DNA from: Amycolatopsis sp. 2-15 | GTDB lineage: Bacteria; Actinomycetota; Actinomycetes; Mycobacteriales; Pseudonocardiaceae | Assembly: GCF_030285625.1 (NCBI RefSeq) | Contig: NZ_CP127294.1 | Location: 2,738,001 to 2,802,000, forward strand | Reading direction: 5' to 3' | Length of the DNA: 64,000 nucleotides | Shown: piece by piece, positions 2,600 to 51,424 of the stretch | Position numbering within the stretch: the stretch's first letter is position 1 | Layout of the letters: every line of letters begins with the position of its first letter | Notes under the pieces: model-generated | What the model saw: only the letters and a program-made list of their open reading frames with translations | The model's database searches: none | What the model was told of the DNA's origin: nothing | Made by a program: the position numbers and the translations under genes

Positions 2600-2637
2600 G
2601 TGCCCCCGGCAGGATTCGAACCTGCGACACCCGCTTT
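2600..2637 (-). other. Attachment-site copy: 3' half of tRNA-Arg(CCT)
   Basis: 38 consecutive bases are the exact reverse complement of tRNA-Arg positions 40537-40574 (anticodon-stem end, variable loop, T arm, acceptor arm). The 5' half of a tRNA is absent, so this is not a tRNA gene. It is the duplicated 3' end left by integration of an element into tRNA-Arg. Its orientation is opposite to the intact tRNA at 40501, so the two cannot now flank one element as direct repeats. Confidence 0.85.
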
Positions 2638-2780
2638 TGTGGATCATGCTTGGCGATGTTGGGTGTTGGTGATCGATATGAGTCACTGCCAGGGATGTTC
2701 GCAAAAGCAATCGAACGTCATCGAGTGGAATCGGCGGTCATTGGCCGTCGTTTGGCGAGGGTAAAGCGTGGGCAGGTGCA
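2638..2780. repeat. Element-end repeat block B, left copy
   Basis: Immediately inside the tRNA-Arg fragment lies about 143 bp that closely matches, in inverted orientation, 51023-51162. Shared landmarks include TTGTGGATCATG, GTTGGGTGTTGGTGATC, ATGTTCGCA and TTTGGCGAGGGTAAA. Position beside an attachment site in both places suggests integrase arm sites or another conserved AICE terminus. Confidence 0.8.
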
Positions 2781-2901
2781 CCGAGCTACGACCGGGGCCC
2801 GTTGGACAGGGACACGACGTGTGCGGCAACGACGACTGATAGGGGTGCCGTGAAACGATGGCGTGCGTTGGCACATCTGAGGGCCTTGGAGGGCGACACG
2901 C

Positions 2902-3606
2902 ATGACCGATCGACTGAGCAGGGGGCTGAGGCTCGTTCGTCTAGCATTGTTCGCTTTGCTGGCGGCATGCGGGGTCTTCTTGACGGTCGGCCCTCTGCGT
3001 GCGAGGGCCTGGTCGTGGGTTACACGGCCTCGAACCGCGGACTGGTGGGGAGCTGCAGGTCAATGGGCGGGTGCCGTGGGCACGATCGCCGCGGTAATTG
3101 TAGCACTGTGGATCGCTATTGGAGACAATAGACGACTCCAAGAAGACCGGCGCGAGAAAGCGATAAAAGACCGTCAGGAGCAAGCATCGAGAGTTACGAC
3201 TTGGATTGAATCGGCTAAAGAGTCTGACAAATTCCTGGATGGCTCTCCCGTAAGTCTCTACATGGTATTATCGAATGCAAATTCCGAGGCAATAAGTAGT
3301 GTTATCGTCTCTTTCGATATATTCAAAGTTTTACCCACATTGACGCCTTACATTTATCGAGGCGAAGATATTGGGCGAGACGAATTTCTGTATGCGATAC
3401 TACCTCCCGGAAAGTGGCGCATGCCCGTACATGAAGGCTGGCAAGGGATGAGTGCGCAACCGGGAGTGATGGTCGCATTTAGTGATTCACGAAACTGCCA
3501 CTGGATTCGAATGACCGACGGCACGCTAACTGAATACTCCGAAAATGTGATCCAGCGTCGAAAAATTTACTTTCCGCAAGGCATAAGCACGCCAGTTCCA
3601 TATTGA
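2902..3606 (+). CDS. Two-TM hypothetical protein, low-GC element cargo
   Basis: 234 residues; ATG preceded by GGAGGGCGACACGC, a good RBS. Two hydrophobic helices at about residues 10-32 and 50-72 are followed by a short charged coil rich in R/E/K and a soluble domain of about 140 residues with no motif I recognise. The coding DNA after residue 70 is clearly lower in GC than the surroundings, with many ATA, AAA and TTT codons, which indicates recent acquisition. It sits between repeat blocks B and A, exactly where an unrelated low-GC gene sits in the other element end (50507-50815). Function unknown; a membrane-tethered exclusion or defence factor is only a guess from context. Confidence 0.65.
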   Translation: MTDRLSRGLRLVRLALFALLAACGVFLTVGPLRARAWSWVTRPRTADWWGAAGQWAGAVGTIAAVIVALWIAIGDNRRLQEDRREKAIKDRQEQASRVTTWIESAKESDKFLDGSPVSLYMVLSNANSEAISSVIVSFDIFKVLPTLTPYIYRGEDIGRDEFLYAILPPGKWRMPVHEGWQGMSAQPGVMVAFSDSRNCHWIRMTDGTLTEYSENVIQRRKIYFPQGISTPVPY

Positions 3607-3792
3607 GTTGATGCCTCGAATAGTTCCAATCCGCACATTTGGAAGGTCCCCTAAAAACCGTTTTTCTGACCGGTCGCCCGCTGCTCTTTTTCCCTGCGGT
3701 CCACATTCGGGTCAGCATGCGGCAATTTCTGCGTGTCTTTACCCCTACAAGTGGGTGGCCTCTTCGCCATCTCGTCGACCTGGCGCAGCCCG

Positions 3793-3868
3793 ATCACGTC
3801 GGGTCAAGGGGGCACCTCCCGGCGGTCCGCAGCATGCCGGCCGAACTGCCCCCTTGACGCGGCGTGAT
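3793..3868. repeat. 22-bp inverted repeat with 32-bp spacer (left copy)
   Basis: Arms 3793-3814 and 3847-3868 (ATCACGtCGgGTCAAGGGGGCA and its complement) differ at two positions. The same structure with the same 32-bp spacer occurs at 50340-50415. Conservation of arms and spacing in two diverging elements suggests a functional site such as a nick/transfer site, single-strand origin or terminator. Confidence 0.6.
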
Positions 3869-4061
3869 AGCCCTCCGGGAGGTCGGCGGGATGGCGGCAG
3901 GTCACTCACCGACGCAACGTGCGCGCGGTCCTGGCCATCTCGGAGACCTGCCCGTCCGGCGAGGACATTCTCTTCTTCTTGGACGCGGCCTCAGGTGCAG
4001 CCGCCGGGCCGGGTGCGTGGGTGCCGGAGGCGGGGCCCCGCGCGCCCGGCCCGACAGCGGC

Positions 4062-4080
4062 GCGGCCCCGCAGGGGCCGC
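4062..4080. terminator. GCGGCCCC hairpin, left copy
   Basis: Perfect 8-bp stem with a 3-nt loop next to an A/T-rich tract. It lies downstream of the YdcF-like remnant, matching the hairpin at 50128-50146 downstream of the intact gene. Probable terminator. Confidence 0.5.
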
Positions 4081-4130
4081 CTTGAACAAGAAAAGAAGCT
4101 TTGAACACGCGGTCCGCGCCGTCACCGGGC

Positions 4131-4272
4131 TCAGGACGTTTCGATGAGCCAGTCGGTATAGCCAGCGTTGACGAGCCGTTCGTAGGCTGTGGTCACCTGG
4201 TCCGGCACGTCTTGCTCGACTGCACATCAGGCTTGGGCGTAGACCGTGATCCGCTGGGTGTCGCCGACGAGC
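4131..4272 (-). pseudogene. 3' fragment of a YdcF-like (DUF218) gene
   Basis: The minus strand encodes the last ~47 residues of the protein encoded intact at 49412-50077 (LVGDTQRITVYAQA ... AYERLINAGYTD). A G-to-T-type change turns the glycine codon after YAQA into TGA. The 5' three quarters of the gene is missing beyond 4272. A truncated and nonsense-mutated remnant, present because block A was duplicated between related elements. Confidence 0.8.
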
Positions 4273-4275
4273 CGC

Positions 4276-4960: not shown

Positions 4961-5443
4961 CTAGGAGTGGGGGTCGTCGACCTTGAGCTGGGCTCCGGGG
5001 TCGGCGACGAAGGCGACCAGGAGCTTAGCCGGTTCCGTGGAGCTGGTGTTCTCCGTGAGGACGTGGTGGGCGCCGGGCTGCTCGATCCAGTTCTGGCCTT
5101 GGTGGAAGGTGGTGACGGGTTGGCCTTCGAGTTGGCTGCGAACGGTGCCGTCGAGAACGTAGGCGTAGACGAACGCGTCGCCGTGCCGGTGCGACGCCGC
5201 ACGTGCGCCGGGTGGGAAAGTGACGATCACCGAGGTGAAGGTCTTGCCTTGCACATTCGGAAGGGCCTGCTGCAGCAGCGGGGTCAGGGTTTCCGTGGGT
5301 GGCTGCGACGCCGTGGCGGGCGTCGGAGCCGTGGCAGCGGGCTGGGTGGTGGCGGGGGCGGGCTGGTCCGAGGCGGCGCAGGCCGTGGCCACAGCCAGCG
5401 TGGCGACGGCCAGCACGCCGCCGGCGATCCTCATTCCGATCAT
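4961..5443 (-). CDS. Cupin-domain lipoprotein
   Basis: 160 residues. The N-terminus has a short basic start, a hydrophobic core and a lipobox-like VATAC with the cysteine at 22, followed by a long Pro/Ala/Thr linker (24-50): a secreted lipoprotein anchored outside the membrane. Residues ~60-150 form a cupin (RmlC-like) barrel with the two histidine-bearing motifs PPGARAASHRHGDAF and IEQPGAHHVLTEN, so a metal centre is likely. Substrate unknown. AGGAGA lies 8 bases before the ATG. It is 14 bp downstream of the oxidoreductase gene on the same strand, so the two form an operon, perhaps for handling a reactive small molecule. Confidence 0.8.
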   Translation of the reverse strand: MIGMRIAGGVLAVATLAVATACAASDQPAPATTQPAATAPTPATASQPPTETLTPLLQQALPNVQGKTFTSVIVTFPPGARAASHRHGDAFVYAYVLDGTVRSQLEGQPVTTFHQGQNWIEQPGAHHVLTENTSSTEPAKLLVAFVADPGAQLKVDDPHS

Positions 5444-5457
5444 GAGAGGTCTCCTGT

Positions 5458-6378
5458 TCAGCTTTCAGTGACGCGGATGATCGTCTTGCCGGGGGTGCGC
5501 TTGCCGGGGGCGAGCGCGGCGGGTGCTTCGGCGAGTGGCCGTACGGCGCCGATAACCGGCTTGAGCCGTCCGTCGCTCAGCCGCGTGGCGAGATCGGCGA
5601 GCCGGGCGCGGTCGGGTTCGACGACGAAGAAGACGGCTCGTCCGTCCGCGGGCCGGACGGTGGGCGGCATGGCGATGGTGACGAGCGTGCCACCGGCGCG
5701 CACCAGGGCGGCCGAGCGGTCGAGGATGTCTCCACCGATCACGTCGAACACGACGTCGACCTCGCCGACGTCCTCCAGCTTCTCGGTCTCGAGGTCGACA
5801 AAGGTTTCGACGCCGAGCGCGACCGCCCGGTCCCGGTCGGAGCCCCGGCCGGTACCGATAACGCGGGCGCCGACTTCGCGGGCGAGCTGTACCGCGATCG
5901 ACCCCACGCCGCCCGCAGCGCCGTGGACCAAGACGGTCTCGCCGGTGGCCAGGCGGCCGTGATCGAACAGGCCCTGCCAGGCGGTCAGTCCGGAGATCGG
6001 CAGCGCGGCCGCCACGGTGTGGTCAACGTCCGCAGGCAGCGGTGCGAGATTGCGGGCCTCCACCGCGGTGTATTCCGCGAGCGAGCCGTCGCGGAACCAG
6101 TCGGCCATGCCGAACACCCGTTGGCCGACACTCAGGCCGGTGGTGCCGAAGCCCAGTTCGACGACGACACCCGACAGCTCGTGGCCGGGCACGCTCGGCG
6201 TCCTGTCGCGGCCCGCGCGATCGGCCCACGTGGCCGACCAGTCGAGTTCCCCGCGGGTGAAACCCGCGGCGTGCACCCGGACGAGAACGTCGTTCTGAAC
6301 CGCTTGGGGAACGGGCAGGTCCGTCAGTGACAGCCCTGCGATACCGGCGTCTCGGTCTCGAACAGTGATGGCTTGCAT
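5458..6378 (-). CDS. NADP-dependent zinc-free MDR oxidoreductase (quinone-reductase type)
   Basis: 306 residues from the ATG reading MQAITVRDRDAG; an upstream in-frame start would add 12 residues without an RBS. Medium-chain dehydrogenase/reductase fold: an N-terminal GroES-like domain (PGHELSGVVVELG) and a Rossmann domain with VHGAAGGVGSIAVQLA and GTGRG. The structural-zinc cysteines are absent, as in quinone oxidoreductases. It would catalyse NAD(P)H-dependent reduction of a quinone or enone in the cytosol. First gene of the pair with the cupin lipoprotein; the 450-bp region upstream is shared with the divergent HD gene. Confidence 0.85.
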   Translation of the reverse strand: MQAITVRDRDAGIAGLSLTDLPVPQAVQNDVLVRVHAAGFTRGELDWSATWADRAGRDRTPSVPGHELSGVVVELGFGTTGLSVGQRVFGMADWFRDGSLAEYTAVEARNLAPLPADVDHTVAAALPISGLTAWQGLFDHGRLATGETVLVHGAAGGVGSIAVQLAREVGARVIGTGRGSDRDRAVALGVETFVDLETEKLEDVGEVDVVFDVIGGDILDRSAALVRAGGTLVTIAMPPTVRPADGRAVFFVVEPDRARLADLATRLSDGRLKPVIGAVRPLAEAPAALAPGKRTPGKTIIRVTES

Positions 6379-6832
6379 GACAGTCCTAACTGGGAGGGGA
6401 TCGATCGAGCGCACCTGCCCGCGAGCATTCCCTCATCGCCGCGTTGTGCGTTCTCCGTCAGGGAGACGAGGTAGCCCCGCCGGGGGTGACAGCCCGACGT
6501 GAATGAGTTTGTCCGGGTCGAAAACCCTGTGGTGCGCGGTGTGTTCCGTCCGTCTGAGCTCTGCACCGTGTCGACCGACTATACGCGGCCCTGGCGAGGG
6601 AACACGAGAGCGAGCTCTCCGCCGACCTCGACCAAGCCGAGGTGGTCGGACGCCCGCACAGAGCTGATCGACCCGACCGCGCGGTGCGGCGTGGGCGGGG
6701 GTCCGCAACCGCTCCGCCAGGCAACACCGGCCGCCGGTCGCCACACGGCACCGACGTCGATGGCGCCAAATGGTCGTTCACGCTGAAGCAAGGAGGTCGC
6801 GGGCCGGACGACTCCTGTGAAACGCTGAACCC
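6379..6832. other. Intergenic region between divergent MDR and HD genes
   Basis: 454 bp with no gene I can support; short minus-strand frames lack an RBS and a recognisable domain. It must contain the promoters of both flanking genes, but no clear -35/-10 pair or operator stands out. Confidence 0.4.
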
Positions 6833-7423
6833 ATGTTGCCGCAAGCTCCCACCGCCGGTGCCGCCCTGGGCGTGGCCACCCGATTCTTCTCGCCCACGCT
6901 GCTCAACCACTCCATCCGCTGCTACCTGTGGGGCGCGATGTACGGTGCGGCGCACGAGATCGCCTTCGACGACGAGCTGTTCTACGTTTCGGCGCTGCTG
7001 CACGACATCGGGCTGACGGAGGCGTTCGACAACCACTGGCGGCCGTTCGAGGAGGCCGGCGGAAACTTGGCCTGGGTCTTCGGCGTGGCCGCCGGCTGGC
7101 CGGCCGAGCAGGCCGACCGCGCCGCCGAGATCATCGTGCTGCACATGGGCGACGACGTATCCCGCGACGCCGACCCCGAGGCTCACCTGCTGCAGATCGC
7201 CACCAGCTTCGAGGTGACCGGGCGGTGGGCCGAGGAGTTCCCGCCGGACGCGAGGACGGAGGTGCTCGCCCGATATCCCCGACTGGGATTCAGCGCGGAG
7301 CTCCTCGCCGAGTTCGAGGACCAGGCGAGGCGCAAGCCCAGCAGCGCCTGCGCCACCTCGATCGGCAAGAACCTCGCCGAGCGGATGACCGGCCACCCGC
7401 TCGACAACCAGTCTTCGGCCTGA
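6833..7423 (+). CDS. HD-domain protein of the cyanamide hydratase-like group
   Basis: 196 residues. H26 (NHSIRCYLWG) and the HD pair at 57-58 (SALLHDIGLTEAF) with later EIIVLHMGDD match the HD metal-dependent hydrolase layout of cyanamide hydratase (Ddi2)-like proteins. That is family knowledge; the substrate here is not provable. Divergent from the MDR/cupin operon, which suggests a small detoxification module. No strong Shine-Dalgarno precedes the ATG, so the start is likely but not certain. Confidence 0.75.
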   Translation: MLPQAPTAGAALGVATRFFSPTLLNHSIRCYLWGAMYGAAHEIAFDDELFYVSALLHDIGLTEAFDNHWRPFEEAGGNLAWVFGVAAGWPAEQADRAAEIIVLHMGDDVSRDADPEAHLLQIATSFEVTGRWAEEFPPDARTEVLARYPRLGFSAELLAEFEDQARRKPSSACATSIGKNLAERMTGHPLDNQSSA

Positions 7424-7956
7424 ACCCGCACGGTCGCGCGAGGATGCCTGAACGGCAGGTCCTCCCGCTCCACCACCGGCGCCCAATCGACCACATGTTC
7501 GATCGTAAAGGTTCGCGACTTGGCTGAAAACACCGGTGACCAGTCCCCGAGGCGAGGTCGACCTAAACGCCCAGTCACGCCGTCACGTCCTGCCGTGAGG
7601 CGAGCAACGACGTCACGGTGCGAGGTTCGGCGGTCGTTCGGCCCCGGGATCGTCGACGACGTGTACGGCGGTCGACTCCGGGGCGCACAGCCACGGAACG
7701 AATTCAAGGTCCTCCCACAAGCCTGAGCATGCGGGTACCAGGCGCGCCAGCGGCTCAGACTCAGGCAAAGGTCGCAACGACCACGTGTCACTCGTCCCCT
7801 GACGCTGGCACACCACCAAGCGGACTGGTCTGCCATTCGCAGATCTGTGGATAACCGGCCTTCCATCCCGCTGGCCAGCCTCGATGCCACCCACCCCGAC
7901 CATCACTGCCGTGACGCTCGCTCGCGAGGCCGGCCAGACCCCTAGGATCGAGAGCT
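7424..7956. other. Gene-free stretch between two HD genes
   Basis: 533 bp in which no frame has both a plausible start and coding character. The three bases upstream of the next ATG and a weak AGGATCGAGAGCT are the only hints of expression signals. Likely junction DNA between cargo acquired at different times. Confidence 0.4.
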
Positions 7957-8538
7957 ATGGCTGACGACGAACGGGCCCAGCAGGTCACTGCCGACGACTT
8001 GGTGTCGTCCGCGGCGCTTCTTGCCGAACGAATGGTCGCTCCACTCGGTCAGCGTTGGAGTCACGTGCAGGCCGTTGCCAAACGAGCCGAGAACCTTGCC
8101 CGGGCGGTTGCTGCGGAAGATCGCCAGACCTTGGTGGCTTCGGGGTGGTTGTACGATATCGGGTATTCGCACGAGATCAAACACACTGGGTTCCACCCAT
8201 TGGATGGCGCCCGTTTCTTGCGGCAGATGGGGTGGCCAGACGACATCGTGAACCTGGTGGCACACCACTCCGGAGCCAGGTTCGAAGCAGAACAGCGCGG
8301 TCTGACTGAAGACCTGAAAGAGTTCCCTTTTGCGGACAGCGACCTTCTTGACGCCTTGGTTGCGGCTGACTTGACAACGGGACCGCAGGGACAGTCGTTG
8401 ACGTACGACGAGCGTATTGAAGAAATTCTACAACGATATCCCGAAGATGACCCCGTGCATAAAACTTGGAAGTTTGCTGCGCCAATTCTTGAAGAGTCGA
8501 TCCTTCGCGTGCAATCCAGGCTAGCCGAGGTAGGGTGA
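7957..8538 (+). CDS. HD-domain protein with altered HD motif (element cargo)
   Basis: 193 residues. The layout follows HD phosphohydrolases found next to NUDIX genes on actinobacterial elements: H36 (SHVQAVAKRA), then WLYDIGYS at 64-71, PLDGARFLRQMGW and VAHHSGA. In this family the central motif is normally WLHDIGYS; here the metal-binding His is Tyr (codon TAC, one C-to-T step from CAC), so catalysis may be lost. Its 3' end overlaps the 3' end of the convergent NUDIX gene. GC is a little lower than in the core genome. Confidence 0.75.
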   Translation: MADDERAQQVTADDLVSSAALLAERMVAPLGQRWSHVQAVAKRAENLARAVAAEDRQTLVASGWLYDIGYSHEIKHTGFHPLDGARFLRQMGWPDDIVNLVAHHSGARFEAEQRGLTEDLKEFPFADSDLLDALVAADLTTGPQGQSLTYDERIEEILQRYPEDDPVHKTWKFAAPILEESILRVQSRLAEVG

Positions 8539-8996
8539 TGTTCGACTCTCATCCAGCGCGTGGTCTATGCGCAAGCGCATGGATGGGTGAATGTTGAGGC
8601 TGTCGAGTTCGCTGGGTTCCACCCATCGAACTTCTTTTGTTTCCGTACCGTCTTCATGGGGAATTCCGCCGACCCAGCGCCCCTCGAAGCAAAGCGAGAA
8701 CTGCTGACGCCTTCACCGTCGTCGTAGGCGATCACGTGTCGCGGGTCAGTGTACGTGCCAATAAGGCGGACGACCTCCACGTCTAGCCCGGTCTCCTCGT
8801 GCACCTCCCTCACGGCCGTGTTCGCAATCCGCTCGCCTGCGTCGTGTCCGCCACCTGGGAGCGCCCAGAGATTGTTGTCAATCTTATGAATCAGGAGAAG
8901 GCGCCTGTCCTGGTCTCGAATCGCCACCGTTACCGACGGTACAACACTGTTTGCCTGAGGGGCTGTAGGGTCGTCGAAATAGTCAATGCGCGACAC
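8521..8996 (-). pseudogene. NUDIX hydrolase broken by a one-base frameshift
   Basis: The first ~95 residues are a normal NUDIX domain with an intact box, GGGHDAGERIANTAVREVHEETGLDV-type (G-x5-E-x7-REVHEETG). After DPRHVIAYDDGE, near 8705, the frame leaves the family pattern. In the next frame the sequence continues as expected (RQQFSLCFEGRWVGG, then TKEVRWVEPSELD) and stops at TAG 8521-8523. One missing base accounts for this. NUDIX proteins are typical AICE cargo: the pSAM2 immunity factor Pif has a NUDIX motif. It may therefore once have modulated transfer or immunity of this element. Confidence 0.8.
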
Positions 8997-9009
8997 TGAT
9001 GCACTATCC

Positions 9010-9444
9010 TTACGCGTCGGTTTCCGGGTTTGCGTTCTTCCAGACTAGCTCGAACGAATTCATGTAGTGCCCCCACATTTGTCCGTCAGGGGTCCTTCGA
9101 AGATGCAAGACGGGGCTCTGTCCCGCGAGTGCGCCGTGGGCATGGCCGTTGGCAAGTAATTCGTCATCGAAACGATAGATCGAGTTGTACAAAATCGTTG
9201 AGTGCGTTCGCACTTCCACGCCCGGGAGACCGACAATGTCGGCAAGATAGCGGCGCATCAGTTGGATCCGCCCCTCAAGTCCACCTGGCGTTCCTTCGTC
9301 AATCGCGCGCTGCTTGACAGTTTCAGATGTCTCATCGCCCACCAGAATCCGGAACACGACGCCTTCCTCCGCCTTCTTGCGAATGAGGGGGATCAGGTCG
9401 TACTGCTCTACGAGGAAAGCGCCCGAGAAGACCAGCACGTCCAT
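9010..9444 (-). pseudogene. 5'-truncated DUF5919/phospholipase-D-like regulator fragment
   Basis: 144 residues beginning MDVLVFSGAFLVEQYDLIP, which resembles the C-terminal ligand-binding-like domain of XRE regulators carried by actinobacterial elements (established as a common neighbour of NUDIX/HD genes). The expected N-terminal helix-turn-helix is absent. The coding frame remains open a few codons upstream (GVSRSMDVL) and then meets the opposed DUF3987 fragment at about 9465-9471. I read it as a deletion-truncated gene, although the ATG could in principle be used. Confidence 0.6.
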
Positions 9445-9470
9445 GCTCCGGCTAACTCCGGTCAGCAGCG

Positions 9471-10906
9471 TTTCCGGTGGCCGCGTTCCCGGCCTGGCTG
9501 CGCGAGTTCACCGAGGCTGTCGCCCACACGATCCAGGCGCCGATCGACCTGGCCGGAAGCCTCGCGCTGGCCACGTTGTCCACCGCGGCCGGCGGGCGGG
9601 TAATGGTGCGAGTGCGCCCGTCCTGGTCTGAGCAGACCACGATCTACACCGTGGTGATCATGGAGCCGTCGGCACGCAAGTCGCCGGTCTTCACGGCCAT
9701 GACCGAACCGATCCGCGCTCTGGAGGCGGCTCTGCGAGAGGAGGCCAAGCACAGCATCGAGACCGCGCGGATGCAGCAGCAGATGGCCGCCAGCGCCCGG
9801 GAGAACGCGCAGAAGAAGGCCGCGACCATGCTCGGGGAAGGCGCGGACACACGAGCGCAGGAGGAGGCGATCGCGGACGCGGTCGATGCCGCGCTGGAAG
9901 CGGAGGCGATCGGGATTCCGCACCCGCCGCAGCTGATCGCCGACGACGTCACCCCTCCGAAGGTGGCCACGATGCTCGCGCAGCAGAACGGTCGCCTGTC
10001 GGTGCTCTCGGACGAAGGCACGGTGTTCGAGATCGTGGCCGGCCGCTACTCGGGCAACGTCCAGGCCGAGGTGTTCCTCAAGCGCTACAGCGGCACCGAG
10101 TTGCGGGTGGACCGCGGGGACCGCTCCGAGTACGTGCCCCGCCCTGCGCTCACCCTCGGGGTGACCATCCAGCCCGCCGTCATCGAGGACTTGCCGAAGA
10201 AGCTGCGGGGCAACGGGTTCTTCGCCCGGATCCTGTTCTCCCAACCCGTCCCCATGTCCGGGCACCGCATCATCCGACCCGGCCCGATCCCGCAGGAGGC
10301 CGCCGACACCTACCACCGCAACATGCTCACCATCGCCCGCGAGCTGCACGGCTTCGACGACCCGATCACCCTCACGTTCTCGCCAGAGGCCGACGACCTC
10401 ATGGCCGACATCGAGCGGGAGATCGAACCCAAGCTCGACCCGCTCACCGGCTCCCTCGCCAACATCGCCGACTGGTCCGGGAAACTCGCCGGCCAGACCG
10501 CCCGAATCGCCGCGCTGCTGCACCTGGCCGAACACCCGCTCAACGCGTGGAACAACCCGACCATCGAACGCGACACCCTCGCCAACGCCTGGGAAATCGC
10601 GAAGTACTACACCACCCACGCTCAGGCCACCCTGGCCAAGATCGGGGCCCCGCCCTCCGTCGCCGTCGCCCAAAGGTGCTGGACAAGATCACCGCCCGCA
10701 GCTGGCCACACGGCCACCGATTCCAGGCCCGCCAGATCTACAACGCCGTCCGCAGCGAAGCCGTACCCACCATGAAGGAACTACAACCCGGCCTCGACTT
10801 GCTCGAAGACCTCGGACACATCGCCGCCGAACCCGCCCCCGAGCTGGCGCGCCGGGGCCGTCGCCCCAGCCCCTACTACTGGCTCCACCCCTGCCATCGG
10901 AACTGA
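9471..10906 (+). pseudogene. DUF3987 (YfjI-like) primase/helicase, truncated and frameshifted
   Basis: The frame enters mid-domain at FPVAAFPAWLREF and follows the DUF3987 family: AMTEP-type loop with PSARKSPVF (the P-loop-like segment), GRLSVLSDEGTVFE, RKLRGNGFFARILF and a C-terminal DDLADYV-like region. About one third of the N-terminus is missing. Near 10672 (CGCCCAAAGGTGCTGG) a one-base shift moves the C-terminal wHTH-like tail (KVLDKITARSWPHGHRFQARQIYNAV) to another frame, ending at 10906. In AICEs this family supplies replication functions; this copy is dead twice over. Confidence 0.75.
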
Positions 10907-11542: not shown

Positions 11543-11734
11543 TTGAGTCAGACGATTCAGCCCAAGTGGCACACAGTATCCGAAGTCGCGCTCATGCTCG
11601 GTTACGGACTCTCGAAGACCAAGCAGCTCGTTGCCACCGGCCAGATCAGGTCCATTAAGGACGGCGGGAACCGTCGGATTCTGCCTGCCTGGGTTGACGA
11701 GTACATCAATCGACTCGTGGAGGAAGCAGCCTGA
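11543..11734 (+). CDS. xis: Excisionase-like helix-turn-helix protein
   Basis: 63 residues from a TTG start preceded by a strong GGAGGTG 5-6 bases upstream. A MerR/AlpA-type wHTH fold: WHTVSEVALMLGYGLSKTKQLVATGQIRSIKDGGNRRILPAWVDEYI. Such small proteins bind attachment-site arms and direct integrases towards excision. The integrase start follows within two bases of its stop, so the pair is co-translated. Coding sequence is intact even though its partner integrase is not. Confidence 0.8.
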   Translation: MSQTIQPKWHTVSEVALMLGYGLSKTKQLVATGQIRSIKDGGNRRILPAWVDEYINRLVEEAA

Positions 11735-11735
11735 C

Positions 11736-12963
11736 ATGGCGAGCAAAGGACGCGCCAACGGCGAGGGTTCGATTTACCCGTTCCGCAATGGGTTCGCCGC
11801 GTATGTGTGGGTCTCCACTCCCGCCGGTGAAAGGAAGCGCAAGTACGTCTATGGCCCGTCGCGCGAAGTGGTCCACGAGAAGTGGCTCAAGCTTCACCAG
11901 GCGGCGAAGAACGGCCCAGTGGCAACGTCAGTGCCGCGCTTGCGTGAGTACATGAGCTACTGGCTGACCGAGGTGATCAAACCGAACCGCGCGCCCCTCA
12001 CATACGTCAACTACGAGCTGTTCACCCGGCTCTACATCGAGCCGGCGTTGGGCAACCTGCGGTTGGACAAGCTCGGTGTGCGCGACGTCCAGAAGTGGAT
12101 CAACGCCATTCCGGGAATCTGTCAGTGTTGCGCGCAGGGCAAGGACGCGCGGCGAGACGAGAACCGCCGCCGGTGCTGTGCGTTGAGCGCCCGCCTGTGT
12201 TGCAAGGACGCGCCGTCATCCCGGACCGTCTCCGACATCCGCGCATGCCTGCGCGCGGCACTGAACCACGCGATACGTGAGGAGTTGATCGGCCGGAACG
12301 TCGCGGAGCTGGTGACTCTCCCGACGGTCCGCAAGCGCAAACGAACGGCGTGGACGAGTGAGGAGGCCCGGAAGTTTCTCGAGTCGGCCCGGGACGCCCG
12401 GGACGCGATGTACGCGGGCTACGTGCTGGCCGTCGTCCTGGGCCTGCGCAAGGGTGAGATCCTGGGTCTCACGTGGGGTGCGCTCGACTTCGACAACGGC
12501 GAGCTGGCCGTCAGCCACCAGCTCCAGCGGGCCAGCGGTGAGCTGCTGCACCGCGAGACGAAGACGGCCGCTTCGGACGACACCATGCCGCTGCCAGCCA
12601 TCGTCGTTGCGGCCCTGGAGAAGCGCCGGCGAGACCAGCTCACCGATCGGAAGGAGGCTGAGCTGGCCTGGCACCCGAACGATCTGGTGTTCACCACGAA
12701 GTACGGGCTGCCGATCGACCCCCGGAACTTCAACCGGTCCTGGGACAACCGGGTCACGCGCTCCGGGGTCCGGAAGATCACCGTTCACGATGGCCGGCGG
12801 TCCTGCGGCACGCTGCTGGTCGACCTGGACGTGCACCCCCGGGTGGATCATGCGCATCCTGCGGCACGCACAGTTCTCGATGACGATGGAGATCTACTCA
12901 CAAGCGTCTTCGAAGAAGACGCGGGACGCGCTCAAGCGTCTTGGCGAAAGCCTCGACGAGTAG
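11736..12963 (+). pseudogene. int: Tyrosine integrase of the tRNA-Ala element, frameshifted before the catalytic Tyr
   Basis: From MASKGRANGEGSIYPF the frame gives an AP2-like N-terminal arm-binding domain, a SAM-like core-binding domain (with an unusual Cys-rich insertion CQCCAQG...RRCC near 125-150) and a catalytic domain with the first Arg (GLRKGEILGL) and the H-x-x-R region (TVHDGRRSCGTLLVDLDVHP). At CGGGTGGATCATG (about 12842) one extra G breaks the frame. The other frame supplies IMRILRHAQFSMTMEIYSQAS, which holds the last His and the nucleophilic Tyr, and ends at 12963. As sequenced the product lacks Tyr and should be inactive. Confidence 0.85.
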
Positions 12964-12969
12964 CGCCAC

Positions 12970-12986
12970 TGCTGTACTTTGCTGCT
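12970..12986 (+). promoter_or_regulatory. Candidate integrase arm-type site near tRNA-Ala
   Basis: TGCTGTACTTTGCTGCT lies 55 bp from the tRNA-Ala attachment core on the element side. The same 17-mer with one mismatch occurs at 51280-51297 beside the second tRNA-Ala core copy, in the same orientation relative to the tRNA. Shared sites at both ends of an element are what integrase or excisionase arm sites look like. Confidence 0.5.
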
Positions 12987-13000
12987 ATCAGGGCAACGAC

Positions 13001-13032
13001 AAGGGCCGTCCACTCTACTGTGGACGGCCCTT
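13001..13032. terminator. Bidirectional hairpin between integrase and tRNA-Ala
   Basis: Perfect 13-bp arms AAGGGCCGTCCAC / complement with a 6-nt loop, ending in TT on either strand. Suitable to end both tRNA-Ala (minus) and int (plus) transcripts. Confidence 0.75.
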
Positions 13033-41786: not shown

Positions 41787-41962
41787 CAGGCCGTTCCCTG
41801 GCCGTCGATCCAGGCATCGACCTCGTCGGCCCGGAACCGGACGTACTTGCCAATCTTGTAGCCCTTGGGGCCCTTGCCAGTCTTGCGCCACTGGTAGACG
41901 GTGTTGACCGGCACGTCGAGGTAGCCGGCGAGGTCATCCACGCTGAGCAGTTTCTTGTCCAT
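41786..41962 (-). CDS. xis: Excisionase (AlpA-like helix-turn-helix)
   Basis: 58 residues: LLSVDDLAGYLDVPVNTVYQWRKTG then GYKIGKYVRFRADEVDAWID, a MerR-like wHTH with the beta-hairpin wing. Directs the integrase towards excision. Its start lies inside the 3' end of rep (29-bp overlap) and its stop touches the int start, so rep-xis-int form one coupled unit as in pSAM2. Confidence 0.9.
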   Translation of the reverse strand: MDKKLLSVDDLAGYLDVPVNTVYQWRKTGKGPKGYKIGKYVRFRADEVDAWIDGQGTA

Positions 41963-43304
41963 GGTCGTTTTCCTTGCTGTATTTGAGTTTGCGGTCGTCT
42001 CGGATGCGTTCGGCGATGCCGGCGGCGAGTTCGCGTTCGGCGTCGTCGCGGTAGCCGGCGCCGTCGAAGTCCCACGCGTTGATCACGGCGATGGAGTCGG
42101 CCCGGTCGGCCAGGCCGAGGCGCTCGAGGGTTTCCTCGAGCCGGTAACGGCGGCGGTCGCCGCGAATGTCCTTGAAGGTGGTGGAGTAGGCGCGGGACTT
42201 GGTGAGGAAGTGGCCTCGGAACCCGAGCATGTGGGCCCAGCGGCGCAGATTGAGGTCCTCGTAGGCGGACAGGTCTCCGAGGTTCCATGCGGTTTGGATC
42301 ATGCGGCGGTGGTGCTCGCTCACCTTCAGAAAGTCGATGTCGAGTTGCGAGCGGATGGGGCGGTCGGCGGCTTCGCTTTTGCCGGTGCCCTTGGTGGCGT
42401 ACTTGGCGATGTAGGCGGCGAGGCGGCCCTCGCTGATCCGGCCAGCGTCGTCCTCCAGCTCTGCCGCACCGATCGGTTCGATGCGGCGGACGTCGACCTG
42501 TTCGCCCCACACGACGGTGAACGGGGTCCCGTCGGGGTAGTGGGCGCTTACGTAGGCGGCTCCAGCGGCGGCGTAGACGGCGTCGTCGAGCAGGTCCGGG
42601 TGCGCCCATGCGGGGGCCGGGCTGGTGGCGCCTTCGGGGCCGTCGAGGCGGACCACGGCATGGAAGTGCACAAGGCCGCGCCGCTGGTACTCCGCCACCT
42701 TGGAGTAGGAGAGGCGGGCCTGTTCGGTGAACTCGCGGACCTTGAGCCCGGCGCGTTTGGCGATCTCGCGGCGCAGGCGGGTGGTGAAGCGCTGCCACAG
42801 GGCGCCGGCGTGGGCCTGCCAGAGCACCGAGCCGGTGTAGTCGTAGGTCTCGGGGTCGAGCGGGGTGCCGACGCGGGTGTCGGCGTCGTGGTGGAACTCC
42901 CCGCAGCCGCAGGGGATGCGCTTGCCCCGGGCGCTGGTGCGGGCGTGGTGCACGTGCCCGAACGAGGGGGCGGTGAGGGTGACGAAGGCGCGGGGGCGGT
43001 CGGTGACGGTCTCGGGGACGCCCTTGTGCCCGCCGATGAGGCCGGCGCGGATGAGGTGGAACGCGTCGGCGGCGTAGCGGTCCGAGCAGGATGGGCACAC
43101 CGATTCGCGGCGGTTGCCGCACGGGGCGAAGATGTCGCCGCCGTGGTGGTGCAGCACCTGTCCGGTGGTCGCGTCCTGGAGCTGGTGGGCTCCGGAGAGC
43201 CGGATGGGGCGGGCGCAGCCATTGACGGCGTGGACCTTGGCGCGCCAGGTGTCGTAGTCGAGGGCCTGGACGCGGGCGGCGAGGCGGTCTTCGAGCGTGT
43301 GCAT
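41934..43304 (-). CDS. rep: AICE replication initiator (RepSA-like, rolling circle)
   Basis: 456 residues. Cys/His-rich segments CGNRRESVCPSCSDRYAADA and CGCGEFHHD may bind zinc. The HUH-like metal motif is GLVHFHAVVRLDG, and AYIAKYATKGTG near 300 carries the candidate nicking Tyr. This is the pattern of replication initiator proteins of pSAM2-family AICEs. Nicks the element's double-strand origin to start replication after excision. Confidence 0.88.
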   Translation of the reverse strand: MHTLEDRLAARVQALDYDTWRAKVHAVNGCARPIRLSGAHQLQDATTGQVLHHHGGDIFAPCGNRRESVCPSCSDRYAADAFHLIRAGLIGGHKGVPETVTDRPRAFVTLTAPSFGHVHHARTSARGKRIPCGCGEFHHDADTRVGTPLDPETYDYTGSVLWQAHAGALWQRFTTRLRREIAKRAGLKVREFTEQARLSYSKVAEYQRRGLVHFHAVVRLDGPEGATSPAPAWAHPDLLDDAVYAAAGAAYVSAHYPDGTPFTVVWGEQVDVRRIEPIGAAELEDDAGRISEGRLAAYIAKYATKGTGKSEAADRPIRSQLDIDFLKVSEHHRRMIQTAWNLGDLSAYEDLNLRRWAHMLGFRGHFLTKSRAYSTTFKDIRGDRRRYRLEETLERLGLADRADSIAVINAWDFDGAGYRDDAERELAAGIAERIRDDRKLKYSKENDHGQETAQRG

Positions 43305-44923: not shown

Positions 44924-45277
44924 TCAGTTCTCCTTGTCCGGGGCGTGATGGGGGCAGAACACGAGCTGTTCGGAGGTGCAGGACCAGCCCGGTGAAGCGG
45001 CGATGCACTGGGCGAGGCCGGGCCAGTCGGGGTAGATGAAGTTCTCGCCGTCCGGGAACTCACCGCACACGAGGCAGCGGGCGTAGAACGCGAGCTCGTA
45101 TTCCACGACGCGGGCGCCAACCTCACCGGGAAGCACCGCGTGGCGGTCCATCGCCCATTGGGCGTCTTCCCGACTCAGGTAGAGCCGCTGGTTGGTCTGC
45201 TCGGGAAACCCGCGCCGGTCACACACAAGCACCTCGTAGTGCGGCGCGTGCACGACGGCCGGGAACGTCGCGGCCAC
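44924..45277 (-). CDS. AICE hypothetical protein with Cys/His cluster
   Basis: 117 residues from GTG that overlaps the FtsK-like gene's stop by one base. C-terminal RCLVCGEFPDGEN, GWSCTSEQ and VFCPHH contain four Cys and two His that could form a zinc site. Unknown function; conserved position between tra and spd-like genes. Confidence 0.6.
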   Translation of the reverse strand: MAATFPAVVHAPHYEVLVCDRRGFPEQTNQRLYLSREDAQWAMDRHAVLPGEVGARVVEYELAFYARCLVCGEFPDGENFIYPDWPGLAQCIAASPGWSCTSEQLVFCPHHAPDKEN

Positions 45278-46644
45278 TAGGCCACCACCGTCAGCGCCGG
45301 GGAACCAGCCAGGCCACGCGCAATGAAGGCGACCATGTCGTCGATCTCGCGATCGGCGACGTAGGCCGAGCGGACCCGCTGCGGGACCCGGGAGCGCGGG
45401 CGAATGACGAACCCGATGCCGGCGGTTTCCTCGCCCTCGGGGATCTCGTCAGCGAGCGCGCCACGCAGGCGGGCGCCTTCCCCGAGAACCATGTCCACGT
45501 GGGACTGCGTGGTCACCCGCAGGCAGATGCGGATGGGGAACAGGTCCCGCACCGGAACGGTGTCCTTGGTCGGTTCCTGAACCAGTGCCATGGTGGCGTG
45601 CCCGGTGGCGCGACCCTGGGACACGGCCACCGCGAGATCCTTACGGATCGTGCGGGCGATCGAGCCGTCGCCGTAGGCCATCAGAGCCCCGATCTCGTCG
45701 ATGATCAGCAGGTTGAGCGGGGTCTCCCGGGACATGGTGATCTTGCGTTGCCCGGTGGCGGCGAAGTCACGCTGTACCCGGCGGATGTCCTCGATGAAGT
45801 CGTGGATCAGCTCCGCGCAGGTGCCTTCCTCGTCGGCATAGCGGTGCGCGATGCCGGCCAGCTTGCGGAACTCCATCTGCTTCGGGTCGCAGATCCACAG
45901 CCGCACGAGCCCGTCCCGGATCAGCGGAGCCAGGCCACGCAGCAGGGACAGCGGGATCGAGTTCTTGCCCGACCCGGTGGCCCCGGCGATGAAGATGTGC
46001 TTGCCGAGGATGGACTGGCGCCACTCGGTGCCGTACTCGGTTTCGCCGATGTAGACGTCGCCCGGGTCCACGGCGCCGGACTCGTCGGGCATGTCCGGGG
46101 CCGGAATGGTGTCGGTGAACGGTTCGTGGCGTTCGATGACCAGCGCGACCCGGCCGGGCTTGACCCGTTCAAGGGCGATGCGCTCCACGCGCAGGGCGTC
46201 GGCGAGGATTTCGAGTCGGTCCTCGAAGGCGCGGCGGCCCATGCCGGGCGGGATCTCCATGGTGACCGTGTCCACCGACGGGGAGTGCGAGCGCACCTTG
46301 ACCACCCGGGGGAAGCGGATCTCGTCGGTGCGGCGGTCGACCACGTAGAGGTCACACGCCCGCAGCGCCCGGTTGAACCGGGGGCCGAAGTAGGTGGACC
46401 AGCGCCGCCGCCAGGCCCGCATCCGGGGTGCGGCGTAGTGGTCGAAGGTGTCCGGGTGTGCCCGGTACCAGGCGCACAGCCCCAGCGTGGTGCCACCGAT
46501 GACGCCGCCGGTGGCGCTCCAGCCCAGCTCAATCCCGGAGGCGACGAGGCCGGCCGGGGCGAGCACGGCGCCCGGGTGACGGGCAGTCCACTTGAGACCC
46601 TTGAACTCGGACCCGACCTTGCGGTTGGACTTGGGGTGTTTCAT
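45277..46644 (-). CDS. tra: FtsK/SpoIIIE-type DNA translocase (conjugal transfer protein)
   Basis: 455 residues. Two hydrophobic stretches at about 25-58, then a cytoplasmic ATPase domain: Walker A GATGSGKNS near 218-226, Walker B LLIIDEIGALM, and a conserved MALVQEPTKDTVPVRDLFPIRICLRV. AICEs transfer as double-stranded DNA using one such translocase. Asn replaces the usual Ser/Thr after GSGK, a variant common in AICE Tra proteins as I recall. Intact. Confidence 0.9.
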   Translation of the reverse strand: MKHPKSNRKVGSEFKGLKWTARHPGAVLAPAGLVASGIELGWSATGGVIGGTTLGLCAWYRAHPDTFDHYAAPRMRAWRRRWSTYFGPRFNRALRACDLYVVDRRTDEIRFPRVVKVRSHSPSVDTVTMEIPPGMGRRAFEDRLEILADALRVERIALERVKPGRVALVIERHEPFTDTIPAPDMPDESGAVDPGDVYIGETEYGTEWRQSILGKHIFIAGATGSGKNSIPLSLLRGLAPLIRDGLVRLWICDPKQMEFRKLAGIAHRYADEEGTCAELIHDFIEDIRRVQRDFAATGQRKITMSRETPLNLLIIDEIGALMAYGDGSIARTIRKDLAVAVSQGRATGHATMALVQEPTKDTVPVRDLFPIRICLRVTTQSHVDMVLGEGARLRGALADEIPEGEETAGIGFVIRPRSRVPQRVRSAYVADREIDDMVAFIARGLAGSPALTVVA

Positions 46645-48634: not shown

Positions 48635-49399
48635 GTGACCATCGGCTACAGAGACCTGGCCGCCATCCTCCGGGACGCGATCAAGAGCGGCGAGTACGCG
48701 CCCGAGACGACGTTGCCTAAGCAAGACGAGCTGGCGAGCCTCCATGGGGTGAACGTCAACACCGTCCGGAAGGCAATCGGCACGCTCGAAGCAGAGGGGC
48801 TTGTGACACCGGTGCGACGTAGGGGCACCGTCGTCCGGGCGCGGCCGGCACTACGACGTCTGGGCGCGGAGCGCTACGCCAAGAGCAAATGGAAGTTCGG
48901 GCTCGTGGCGTTCGCGGCGGACCGAGAGGCGTCCGGCGCAACGTGGAACCGCTCCGACCAGACCAACCGCGTCGCGAAGGTCGAGGCCGACGACGAGGTC
49001 GCGGAAGCGCTGGGCGTTGAGTTGGGTAGCCCGGTTTACGAGCGAGCCCGGTTGGTCAAGCAAGACGGCCACCCCACCCACACGCTCACGAGCTACTACC
49101 GGCCGGACGACGTCGAGAACACGCCGATCGTTGACCCGAAGCCAGGCAACGCCTCGCCGGGTGGCGGGTTCGCAGTCCTGACGATGCAGGGTCTCGAGCC
49201 CGACAACATGACCGAGACGATCTCAGCGCGGATGCCGACTCCTGAAGAGATCGACGAACTCGAACTTCCCGCCGGCGAACCGGTGATGATCCTTCACCGG
49301 ACGACACGGACTGCCGACGGCAACCCGGTGGAGTTCGCGCGAGGTGTCCACGCAGCGTCCCGGTTCTCGTGGACGTACACCTTCAAGATCCCCGAGTGA
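48635..49399 (+). CDS. GntR-family (HutC/UTRA) repressor of the AICE, KorSA-like
   Basis: 254 residues from GTG. N-terminal wHTH YRDLAAILRDAIKSGEYAPETTLPKQDELASLHGVNVNTVRKAIGTLEAEGLV; C-terminal UTRA sensor domain ending PVMILHRTTRTADGNPVEFARGVHAASRFSWTY. In pSAM2 KorSA, of this family, silences transfer and replication genes. A small effector bound by UTRA may release repression. Confidence 0.9.
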   Translation: MTIGYRDLAAILRDAIKSGEYAPETTLPKQDELASLHGVNVNTVRKAIGTLEAEGLVTPVRRRGTVVRARPALRRLGAERYAKSKWKFGLVAFAADREASGATWNRSDQTNRVAKVEADDEVAEALGVELGSPVYERARLVKQDGHPTHTLTSYYRPDDVENTPIVDPKPGNASPGGGFAVLTMQGLEPDNMTETISARMPTPEEIDELELPAGEPVMILHRTTRTADGNPVEFARGVHAASRFSWTYTFKIPE

Positions 49400-49411: not shown

Positions 49412-50077
49412 ATGTCCGACGCCACCATTCCCGACGAGGTGCGTGCCGACGTTGAAACGCTCTGGAACTACCACCGTGTTGACGACGAACTGGCACCCGT
49501 CGACCTCGCCATCGGGCTGGGCAGCCATGATCCGAGCGTTGCCACCTACACAGCAGAGTTGTACGGGCGTGGACTCTTTCCCTGCGTGATCTTCACCGGA
49601 GCGAACGCACCGACCACCGTCGAGCGGTTCCCGCGGGGCGAAGCCGTCCACTACCGCGAACTCGCTATCGAGGCTGGCATGCCGGACGAAGCCATCCTCG
49701 TGGAGCCCGACGCGACGAACACGGCAGAGAACTTTGAGTTCAGCCGGAAGCTGGTCGAGAGCCACAACCTCGCAGTCGGGACCGCCCTCATTCTCAGTCG
49801 CCCATACCAGCAGCGGCGCGCGTACGCGACAGCCAAGAAGCTGTGGCCGAAGGTCGACTTCCTGTGCTCGGCGGTTCAGCAGACCATCGACGACTACGTG
49901 AAAAGCATCGGCGACACGGACCGCGTGATCAACATGCTCGTCGGCGACACCCAACGGATCACGGTCTACGCCCAAGCCGGGTATGCAGTCGAGCAAGACG
50001 TGCCGGACCAGGTGACCACAGCCTACGAACGGCTCATCAACGCTGGCTATACCGACCGGCTCATCCAAACGTCCTGA
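49412..50077 (+). CDS. YdcF-family (DUF218) protein
   Basis: 221 residues. DLAIGLGSHDPSVATYTAELYGRGLFPCVIFTGANAPTT, AVHYRELAIEAGMPDEAILVEPDATNTAENFEFS, LILSRPYQQRRAYATAKKLWP: the DUF218 fold (possible nucleotide or SAM-binding, function unproven). 12 bp after the GntR gene, so likely co-regulated. Its last 47 codons are duplicated as a broken copy at 4131-4272. Confidence 0.85.
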   Translation: MSDATIPDEVRADVETLWNYHRVDDELAPVDLAIGLGSHDPSVATYTAELYGRGLFPCVIFTGANAPTTVERFPRGEAVHYRELAIEAGMPDEAILVEPDATNTAENFEFSRKLVESHNLAVGTALILSRPYQQRRAYATAKKLWPKVDFLCSAVQQTIDDYVKSIGDTDRVINMLVGDTQRITVYAQAGYAVEQDVPDQVTTAYERLINAGYTDRLIQTS

Positions 50078-50127
50078 GCCCGGCAACGGCGTGGGCCGTG
50101 TGTTCAGAGTTTCTTTTCTTGTTCAAG

Positions 50128-50146
50128 GCGGCCCCTGCGGGGCCGC
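50128..50146 (+). terminator. GCGGCCCC hairpin after the YdcF-like gene
   Basis: Perfect 8-bp stem, 3-nt loop, 51 bp after the stop and preceded by TTTCTTTTCTTG. Conserved in the left block. Confidence 0.6.
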
Positions 50147-50339
50147 GCCGCGATCGGCCGGCACGCGCGGGGCCCCGCCTCCGGCACCCCACGCGACCGG
50201 CCGGCGGCTGCACGGGAGCCGCAGCTCAAGAAGAAAGAATGTCCTCGCCGGACGGGCAGGTCTCCGAGATGGTCGAGAAGCGCAGGCACGTCGCGTCCGT
50301 GAGTGACCTGTCGCCATCTCGCCAACCTCCCGGAGGGCT

Positions 50340-50415
50340 ATCACGCCGCGTCAAGGGGGCAGCTCAGCCGGCACGCTCCGGACCGCTCTAATGTGCCCCC
50401 TTGACACGGCGTGAT
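50340..50415. repeat. 22-bp inverted repeat with 32-bp spacer (right copy)
   Basis: Arms 50340-50361 and 50394-50415 differ at one base (ATCACGCCGyGTCAAGGGGGCA). Arm sequence and spacer length match the left copy at 3793-3868, while the spacer bases have diverged. Confidence 0.65.
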
Positions 50416-50506
50416 CGGGCTACGCCAGGTCGACGAGATGGCGAAGAGGCCACCCACTTGTAGGTTGGGGATTTTTCAGGGTGTCATGAAGTGCTAATGT
50501 GTCGCC

Positions 50507-50815
50507 ATGGATTACTACCCATCTACTCCAGAAGAAGAAGAAAAGCTTCACCGGGCACTTACAAGCGGCGCTCAATACCAGCTGGAAGTAAAAACTACGA
50601 TAATCGTTCTCGATGAAGACGAACTGGTTCGACAAGCGAGAGAAAAGATTGAATCTGCAAGATTCGAAAACGACAGTAGTCGTGCACATATGCTTGAAGT
50701 CGTCGGTTCCGACCCGGCAGAAGCAATCGGCGCCCTTCTCTCGATATATAACATAATCGACACGAATGCGGCGATTTGTCGTTCTTCTTCGCATAAGATT
50801 CGATTAATGCCGTAA
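50507..50815 (+). CDS. Small low-GC hypothetical protein (cargo slot)
   Basis: 102 residues from ATG: MDYYPSTPEEEEKLHRALTSG, then TTIIVLDEDELVRQAREKIESARFENDSSR and EVVGSDPAEAIGALLSIYNII. Acidic, mostly helical, no TM. GC is well below that of neighbours (runs of AGAA, ATAT). RBS is weak. Occupies the same place between blocks A and B as the unrelated gene 2902-3606. No known family recognised. Confidence 0.55.
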   Translation: MDYYPSTPEEEEKLHRALTSGAQYQLEVKTTIIVLDEDELVRQAREKIESARFENDSSRAHMLEVVGSDPAEAIGALLSIYNIIDTNAAICRSSSHKIRLMP

Positions 50816-51022
50816 CAGGCCGCTCTCCACGCCGGCCGCGTGCCAGCCCATGCCACATGCATGTCACACAGCACCACCCAAGGCCTACCGGCGACAACCA
50901 ACGACGATCGAGACTCTGCAGGTCAGGCGGCATCTTTGCCGTAACGCCGGTGGCCCCAGCGGTGCCGGATGAGGTCAAGGGGTCGTCCGGTCAAGACGGA
51001 AGCCGGCGCCACATGGCCTGCG

Positions 51023-51162
51023 CACCTGCCATGTTTTACCCTCGCCAAACAACGGCCAATGACCGCCAAGGTTGCCCGGTAACCCTCGATTGCTTCTGCG
51101 AACATGCCTGGTAGTGATCCACATTGATCACCAACACCCAACGTCGCACACCATGATCCACA
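51023..51162. repeat. Element-end repeat block B, right copy
   Basis: Inverted homologue of 2638-2780, lying directly inside the degenerate tRNA-Arg fragment. The 50816-51022 stretch between the cargo gene and this block has no supportable gene. Confidence 0.8.
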
Positions 51163-51200
51163 AAAGCGGGTGTCGCAGGCTCGATCCCTGCCCCGGGGCA
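51163..51200 (+). other. Degenerate tRNA-Arg 3' fragment
   Basis: 17 bases (51163-51179) match tRNA-Arg exactly. The T arm then reads GCAGG-CTCGATC-CCTGC (still able to pair) and the acceptor region is CCGGGGC with an inserted C. Much poorer than the 38-bp match at 2600, so it is an older or heterologous attachment scar rather than the partner created by the present insertion. Confidence 0.65.
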
Positions 51201-51380
51201 CCCGTCGTCACCAGTGCGGATCGCCCATCTGCCTGCTTCCGATCCCGCGTTGCTTTCCCCAGCTGGTTGGCTGCCGTACAGCAGCGAAGTACAGCAACCG
51301 CACCGACGCTCAGTGTCCGCGATCGACCGGCGACGACCCTCTGACCTCGGCAAAGACCGGCACTGGCTTTCGTGCTGATA
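51201..51380. other. Right-end arm region of the tRNA-Ala element
   Basis: 180 bp between the two tRNA fragments. No gene. It contains the 17-bp arm-type repeat at 51280-51297, whose partner is at 12970-12986 next to the intact tRNA-Ala. Confidence 0.5.
51280..51297 (-). promoter_or_regulatory. Candidate integrase arm-type site near the second tRNA-Ala core
   Basis: AGCAGCGAAGTACAGCAA; 16 of 17 bases match the complement of 12970-12986. In both places it lies 55-85 bp from the core on the side that would be inside the element. Confidence 0.5.
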
Positions 51381-51424
51381 GTTCGCATCGAGAAGGTCAG
51401 GGGTTCGATTCCCCTCAGCTCCAC
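51381..51424 (+). other. Attachment-site copy: 3' half of tRNA-Ala(CGC)
   Basis: 44 bases identical to the 3' half of the tRNA-Ala at 13042-13114 but on the opposite strand. No 5' half is present. This is the distal junction of the tRNA-Ala element; being inverted relative to its partner, it cannot now serve for excision. Confidence 0.88.

Follow-up and report, generated by a model that had tools for sequence, protein, structure and literature searches.

How did two tRNA genes in the chromosome of the soil actinomycete Amycolatopsis sp. 2-15 come to have the copies of their 3' ends far away, on the other side of a block of core genes and in inverted orientation? The locus is a stretch of 64,000 nucleotides (here called the window), which comprises positions 2738001-2802000 of the single 10.05 Mb contig of this genome (G000 in our set). 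Two integrated elements lie in it, one hosted by a tRNA-Ala gene and the other by a tRNA-Arg gene; the latter, the Arg element, has the genes of an actinomycete integrative and conjugative element (AICE). The core block between the two tRNA genes is inverted relative to the chromosome on both sides, and we are virtually certain that this inversion is real and derived. The first-pass annotation had proposed an inversion of about 46 kb that included core genes, which proved to be one of about 46-48 kb, with 27.5 kb of core, derived in G000.

Attachment sites and repeats at the two ends of the core

Relatives provide the names of the flanks: X is the region beyond tRNA-Ala in genome G009, and Y the region beyond tRNA-Arg in the same genome. 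The features on which the argument rests are the following, where att stands for attachment site and a prime marks the copy distant from the tRNA gene.

84..1688, + strand: qcrB-like gene, end of the Y flank (Pfam Cytochrome b families; 96% protein identity to, and DNA synteny with, G086)
2600..2637, − strand: attArg', perfect copy (38/38) of the tRNA-Arg 3' end, Y-linked and inverted relative to its own tRNA
2638..2779, − strand: block B, left copy, just inside the Arg attachment site (self-BLAST and alignments)
3744..4272, − strand: block A, left copy (self-BLAST)
13040..13114, − strand: tRNA-Ala(cgc), host gene of the Ala element (ARAGORN), att at 13041-13084
13170..40410, inverted relative to both flanks: conserved core block with MoeA, a nucleotidyl transferase, a trypsin/PDZ protease, a two-component pair and a PPDK-like protein
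40501..40576, + strand: tRNA-Arg(cct), host gene of the Arg element (ARAGORN), att at 40537-40574
49936..50464, + strand: block A, right copy (self-BLAST)
51022..51162, + strand: block B, right copy (self-BLAST and alignment)
51163..51202, + strand: attArg-like site nested within the distal end of the Ala element (self-BLAST; present in G086 too)
51203..51380, + strand: inner flank of attAla', conserved from about 51273 onward in L155, L161 and G083
51381..51424, + strand: attAla', perfect copy (44/44) of the tRNA-Ala 3' end, X-linked and inverted relative to its own tRNA
54223..64000: start of the X flank, its order matched in G086, G009 and G083

Comparison of the window with itself by BLAST paired 2600-2637 with 40574-40537 (38/38, E 4e-12), 13041-13084 with 51424-51381 (44/44, E 2e-15), the block A copies 3744-4272 and 50464-49936 (89.9% identity, E 0), and block B with its attachment site, 2600-2779 with 51201-51022 (82.9%, E 3e-45). 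All four matches are inverted and far beyond chance, and the earlier placement of both tRNA genes, both att copies and blocks A and B is confirmed at E values from 4e-12 to 0. The left breakpoint interval runs from attArg' (2600, beside Y) to the end of the Ala integrase (11510, core-linked in G086) and the right one from tRNA-Arg (40576) to 51149; at E 1e-3 or better, no inverted pairs link these two intervals other than blocks A and B, together with the neighbouring att. The block A copies are identical at 475 of 526 aligned positions and differ at 51, with exact shared runs of 52, 42, 41, 38 and 37 bp, and the longest runs shared by the B/att pair are 28 and 17 bp. In the left copy of A, nucleotides ~4133-4272 are a DUF218 gene fragment from the 3' end, interrupted by an in-frame stop.

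The homology of block B continues through 51163-51202, a sequence 87.5% identical to the tRNA-Arg end, and the right end therefore carries two nested attachment sites, not one. The attArg-like site is located about 180 bp inside attAla', with B and then A behind it. This att/B/A order is that found at Arg elements such as the one in G061 (for A and att also in G091), and G086 has the same nesting with five mismatches. Since 51273-51424 is conserved beside attAla' in L155, L161 and G083, this stretch belongs to the Ala element, and 51203-51380 is a probable arm region for the Ala integrase. Left block B, which is probably the integrase arm of the Arg site, finds matches (E 1e-12 or better) in 7 of the 80 genus genomes including G000, those in four of the six others covering just 47-53 bp. 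We infer that, by the time the lineage split from G086, an Arg-type distal module had already become joined to the Ala element, supplying the inverted partner for the later exchange.

Direction and uniqueness of the inversion

The core block (window 13040-36921) is collinear with 2113037-2137461 of G009. The Y region of that genome (2170542-2243163) corresponds, reversed, to DNA left of the window (2638012-2712956 of G000), and its X region (1946738-2028312), reversed as well, to the right side (2792272-2871639). As both flanks are reversed in this comparison and the core is collinear, it is the core alone that has turned relative to both. The order in G005 agrees with that in G009, and that in G050 agrees for the Y side. 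In G086, the closest of the 80 genus genomes (94% DNA identity in the core; 84-97% per aligned piece in the flanks, mostly 91-95%), the same flanks enclose a core that lies the opposite way round from that of G000. The order there is X, attAla', attArg-like site and B, A, interior, Ala integrase, tRNA-Ala, core, tRNA-Arg, qcrB and Y, with these coordinates:

2505592-2505635: attAla'
2505816-2505995: attArg-like site and B
2508219-2508357: A, a short copy, with 23 kb of interior beyond
2533006, − strand: tRNA-Ala, followed by the core on the + strand
2560631-2560707, + strand: tRNA-Arg
2593831-2595420: qcrB, ~33 kb downstream of tRNA-Arg

The attAla copies of G086 are in direct repeat, and in G083 attAla' is likewise direct and X-linked. 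Apart from the lack of a second attArg copy on the Y side of G086, this is the order foreseen for the time before the flip, and the proposal that turning the segment back restores direct att repeats for both elements at once is supported. It had also been predicted that relatives would have qcrB downstream of tRNA-Arg, where G086 indeed has it, and a KAP gene downstream of tRNA-Ala; for the latter, a G083 remnant resembling the KAP N-terminus beside attAla' gives weak support, and none was found in G086. As an ancestral marker of X the KAP gene is weak, its best homologue (in G042) being outside the flank. We rejected qcrB as a general flank marker, with three copies in the genome and the G009 gene 3.8 Mb from the core. 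The three qcrB-like genes of G000 start at 2738084, 4895349 and 9322083, and the window copy is present in G086 too. The KAP-type NTPase gene of the window (51442-54221) occupies two overlapping frames (51442-52482 and 52272-54221) and so looks frameshifted.

The survey of the genus used four anchors, X, Y, C2 (near tRNA-Arg) and C1 (near tRNA-Ala), which were found in 77, 67, 79 and 80 of the 80 genomes, respectively. X, Y and C2 share a contig in 49 genomes. In every one of these except G000 (48/48) the anchors follow the ancestral order X-C1-C2-Y, and C2 points against the flanks; only in G000 is the order X-C2-C1-Y, with C2 pointing the same way as the flanks, so the inversion is derived and, within this sample, unique. 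Among the remaining 31 genomes, seven give no call; in the other 24 a single flank anchor lies on the contig, and all but one of these (23) are ancestral-like, the exception being G013, in which the X anchor is 5 Mb away.

The same survey turned up other rearrangements near the two tRNA genes. In 14 of the 49 genomes a moeA-like gene (window 14854-16170) has turned with respect to the part of the core on the tRNA-Arg side, which is a separate, smaller inversion on the tRNA-Ala side. The tRNA-Arg(cct) gene is flipped relative to C2, at a distance of 4-31 kb, in 14 of the 74 genomes with both on one contig (G083 and G042 among them); in these genomes the tRNA has been rearranged in other ways, through inversion or through replacement of the tRNA. 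Three direct copies of the tRNA-Arg end in G058 (contig C6, 2046104, 2047757 and 2071624), two of them with an integrase fragment in between, suggest tandem remnants of Arg-type elements.

Mechanism of the inversion and its rivals

Of the mechanisms considered, an exchange between the inverted distal modules has the best support. After the split from G086 the lineage would have carried an Arg-type AICE in tRNA-Arg together with an older, remodelled element in tRNA-Ala, the distal end of which would have held an Arg-type distal module (A, spacer, B and attArg-like site) just inside attAla'. The two modules would have faced each other as inverted repeats, and a single reciprocal exchange, most likely homologous recombination of the RecA type in block A, could have flipped everything between them. 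The Ala element was in place before the flip, as its integrase and its distal end (51149-51424) are common to G086, and attArg' was presumably Y-linked from the start. Block A is the likelier substrate because it is the longest and most similar pair and has the longest exact runs. The scenario as a whole, with A as the presumed point of exchange and RecA as the presumed agent, we consider moderately probable. Its first-pass version, a crossover between the distal ends in A, stands as far as inverted homologous modules are present at both breakpoints; A as the site is not established.

Several observations weigh against this scenario. When the 51 positions at which the A copies differ were compared with 14 further copies of A (including the third one of G000), no clear switch of affinity was seen by eye in the A core: G042, the closest to the left copy, agrees with it at 32 positions and with the right copy at 12; the A of G083, closer to the right copy, agrees at 26 right and 14 left positions, with no switch within the core; and the short A of G086 is mixed (12 left, 10 right). 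The B copies tie, each having 119/150 identities to G086 and 106/147 to G061, and their 30 differing sites divide into 13 that agree with the left copy and 13 with the right, for G086 and G061 alike. Neither copy is thus the vertical partner of the G086 B, which means that the X-side module was replaced in one lineage and that its history is blurred. Block B and the attArg core are as well placed as A for the crossover. Finally, a search of the Y side of G086 that allowed up to 8 mismatches found no second attArg copy, so that this genome does not display the Arg element in the ancestral place. An origin of the A pair in the inversion itself, by duplication at staggered breaks, is disfavoured: divergence is 10% between the two A copies, against 6% between the core and that of the non-inverted G086, which is not proof as non-coding DNA may change faster.

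The attArg core is also where a site-specific reading would place the event. An Arg-type integrase could have recombined attArg' (2600-2637) with the inverted attArg-like site (51163-51202), flipping 48.5 kb. Both ends carry inverted att cores with 28 identical bases across the inner edge and the first half of the att, the Arg integrase gene is open and encodes an HxxR...Y box, and integrase-driven inversions are known in Thermococcus (PMC5495485). Moreover, 51149-51424, which is X-linked up to attAla', is identical to G086 at 264 of 277 positions (~95%), and just inside the attArg core identity drops sharply to 104 of 136, so that an exchange or a replacement took place there in one lineage since the split. 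On the other hand, both sites look like the same half-site (core and arm) rather than an attP/attB or attL/attR pair, and left B, expected on this reading to be ~95% identical to the B of G086, has the 119/150 given above. We regard an integrase-driven inversion as possible though rather unlikely. Far less likely is an integration within the chromosome, in which an Ala-type attP in a composite element at tRNA-Arg recombined with an empty, inverted tRNA-Ala. This single event would yield both inverted att pairs, but G086 and G083 already have the Ala element at tRNA-Ala with a direct, X-linked attAla', 51149-51424 is 95% identical to G086, and the Ala integrase is frameshifted here, though perhaps it was intact then.

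Repeats at both joins are what a misassembly through the A blocks, with the ancestral order as the true one, would need; yet the genome is one 10.05 Mb contig and the A copies differ at 51 of 526 positions, so reads longer than ~530 bases should separate them, and we give this explanation hardly any credence. We think no better of an inversion older than the arrival of one or both elements, with the att copies as unrelated scars. Cargo does turn over fast, and among 22 window proteins the fetched region of G086 shows only relatives of the Ala integrase, qcrB and the alcohol dehydrogenase (tblastn, >60 bits). Against such an order of events, attAla' is X-linked in the non-inverted G086, and attArg' is a perfect copy beside Y.

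The two elements and the meaning of the locus

The genes of the two elements are as follows:

4961..10775: cargo of the Ala element, namely cupin, alcohol dehydrogenase, two HD-domain ORFs, NUDIX and DUF3987 (Pfam)
11631..13034, + strand: Ala-type tyrosine integrase (Pfam and alignment)
40629..41891, − strand: Arg-type tyrosine integrase, open, with HxxR...Y box (Pfam Phage_integrase and motif)
41934..43304, − strand: RepSA replication initiator (Pfam PF20199, E 9e-152)
45277..46644, − strand: FtsK/SpoIIIE-domain transfer protein, Tra (Pfam PF01580)
48635..49399, + strand: GntR/UTRA regulator (Pfam)
49412..50077, + strand: DUF218 gene, complete, its 3' end inside block A (Pfam)

An AICE was taken to have an integrase, a RepSA, RepAM or Prim-Pol protein, an FtsK/SpoIIIE-type Tra and flanking direct att repeats; the genes of the Arg element match the AICE gene set given in PMC3218068. 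Its integrase scores 56.8 bits for Pfam Phage_integrase (cut-off 27.1) and its Tra 42.9 bits for PF01580 (cut-off 24), the latter with no NCBIfam hit; RepSA is recognized through PF20199, its NCBIfam RepSA score of 469 being under that model's own cut-off of 700. Its att repeats are inverted now and direct after un-inversion, as they are in a related, intact-looking Arg AICE in G091 with the order int-RepSA-Tra-GntR-DUF218-A-att. The claim that both elements are AICEs did not hold. Pfam scans of a part of the ORFs of the Ala element detected no FtsK/SpoIIIE Tra and no RepSA, RepAM or Prim-Pol, with DUF3987 only, and a tblastn search with the Arg Tra across 364 kb of G000 found itself alone. 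The Ala integrase, 94% identical to the G086 protein over residues 1-405, leaves the reading frame shared by 11 aligned relatives after residue ~405, upstream of the presumed catalytic-tyrosine box; judged from this alignment it looks broken by a frameshift, with that box lost, though the frameshift may be a sequencing error. The closest named carriers of this integrase are Actinosynnema sp. ALI-1.44, Lentzea jiangxiensis and Lentzea flava. Relatives of the Ala-type element in L156 and L157 have DNA that matches RepSA and Tra of the Arg element, and AICEs therefore do occur in this family; to call the present copy one is too generous. Two ORFs from between A and B were scanned and gave no Pfam match. 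Among the loci searched, the left one has a match only in G059 (58%), in a 12 kb stretch otherwise without window match, and the right one has none.

The core of block A (50099-50464 and 3744-4108) is a sequence of ~365 bp with a long hairpin, and full or partial matches occur in 35 of the 80 genus genomes including G000 (E 1e-20 or better, at most five candidates scored per genome); the third G000 copy is at 7142740. The predicted DNA fold of 50236-50466 is more stable than those of all 200 shuffled sequences (z −3.3), and only 1 of 42 pairs of the hairpin consensus has a two-sided change. An Rfam scan of 2400-5000 gave nothing at the gathering score, and the best matches of a plasmid search with A, in seven Streptomyces records, cover just bases 7-85 of the 376 of the query. 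Our guess is that the core is a start site for replication or transfer.

The locus belongs to a known kind, inversions between integrated elements, of which it is a clean example linked to an AICE. As in Escherichia coli O157:H7, where homologous prophages with repeats of >5 kb accompany an inversion of 1.2 Mb (PMC8743559), two integrated elements exchange reciprocally across inverted stretches of homology and so turn the chromosome between them; here, however, stretches of 0.14-0.53 kb with 80-90% identity account for a flip of 46-48 kb, and the swap of att partners can be seen. The integrase of Thermococcus pTN3 has been shown to invert DNA (PMC5495485), and the inverted tRNA-derived att sites and the tyrosine integrase are shared with that system, but integrase inversion is just a rival reading here, where longer homology is available. 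The ICEHptfs elements of Helicobacter pylori, integrative and conjugative elements (ICEs), resemble the present case in that two related ICEs sharing a chromosome undergo homologous recombination; in that species the outcome is hybrids and deletions, and one of the ICEs is noted as disrupted by a chromosomal inversion (PMC4234485). The Arg element is like the pSAM2/RepSA AICEs (PMC3218068) in its tyrosine integrase, RepSA, FtsK-type Tra and tRNA 3'-end site and unlike them in that its distal att lies across the core, inverted. The word inversion does not occur in the main text of that AICE survey, and no AICE-linked inversion was noticed among the matches listed in a literature search, whose coverage excluded subscription papers.

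As the att partners are swapped and inverted, recombination of cognate pairs is predicted to excise neither element; between tRNA-Arg and attArg' it would instead turn ~38 kb around. It is improbable, yet worth stating, that the Arg integrase, which looks complete, keeps flipping this segment between 2600-2637 and 40537-40574 as a site-specific inverton, so that the strain is a mixture of orientations. Such a flip, if true, would include the core block and the 3' half of the tRNA gene, and, more broadly, tRNA-Arg would be a hotspot at which inversions recur across the genus, owing to nested att sites that AICEs have left behind (cf. the 14 of 74 genomes with a flipped gene). Small actinobacterial integrative elements can bound an inversion of core chromosome between two tRNA genes, and the swapped, inverted att partners are a diagnostic scar that can be searched for in any genome. 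The predicted locking of both elements, whose att pairs would now only invert, amounts to a means by which a chromosome can trap a mobile element.

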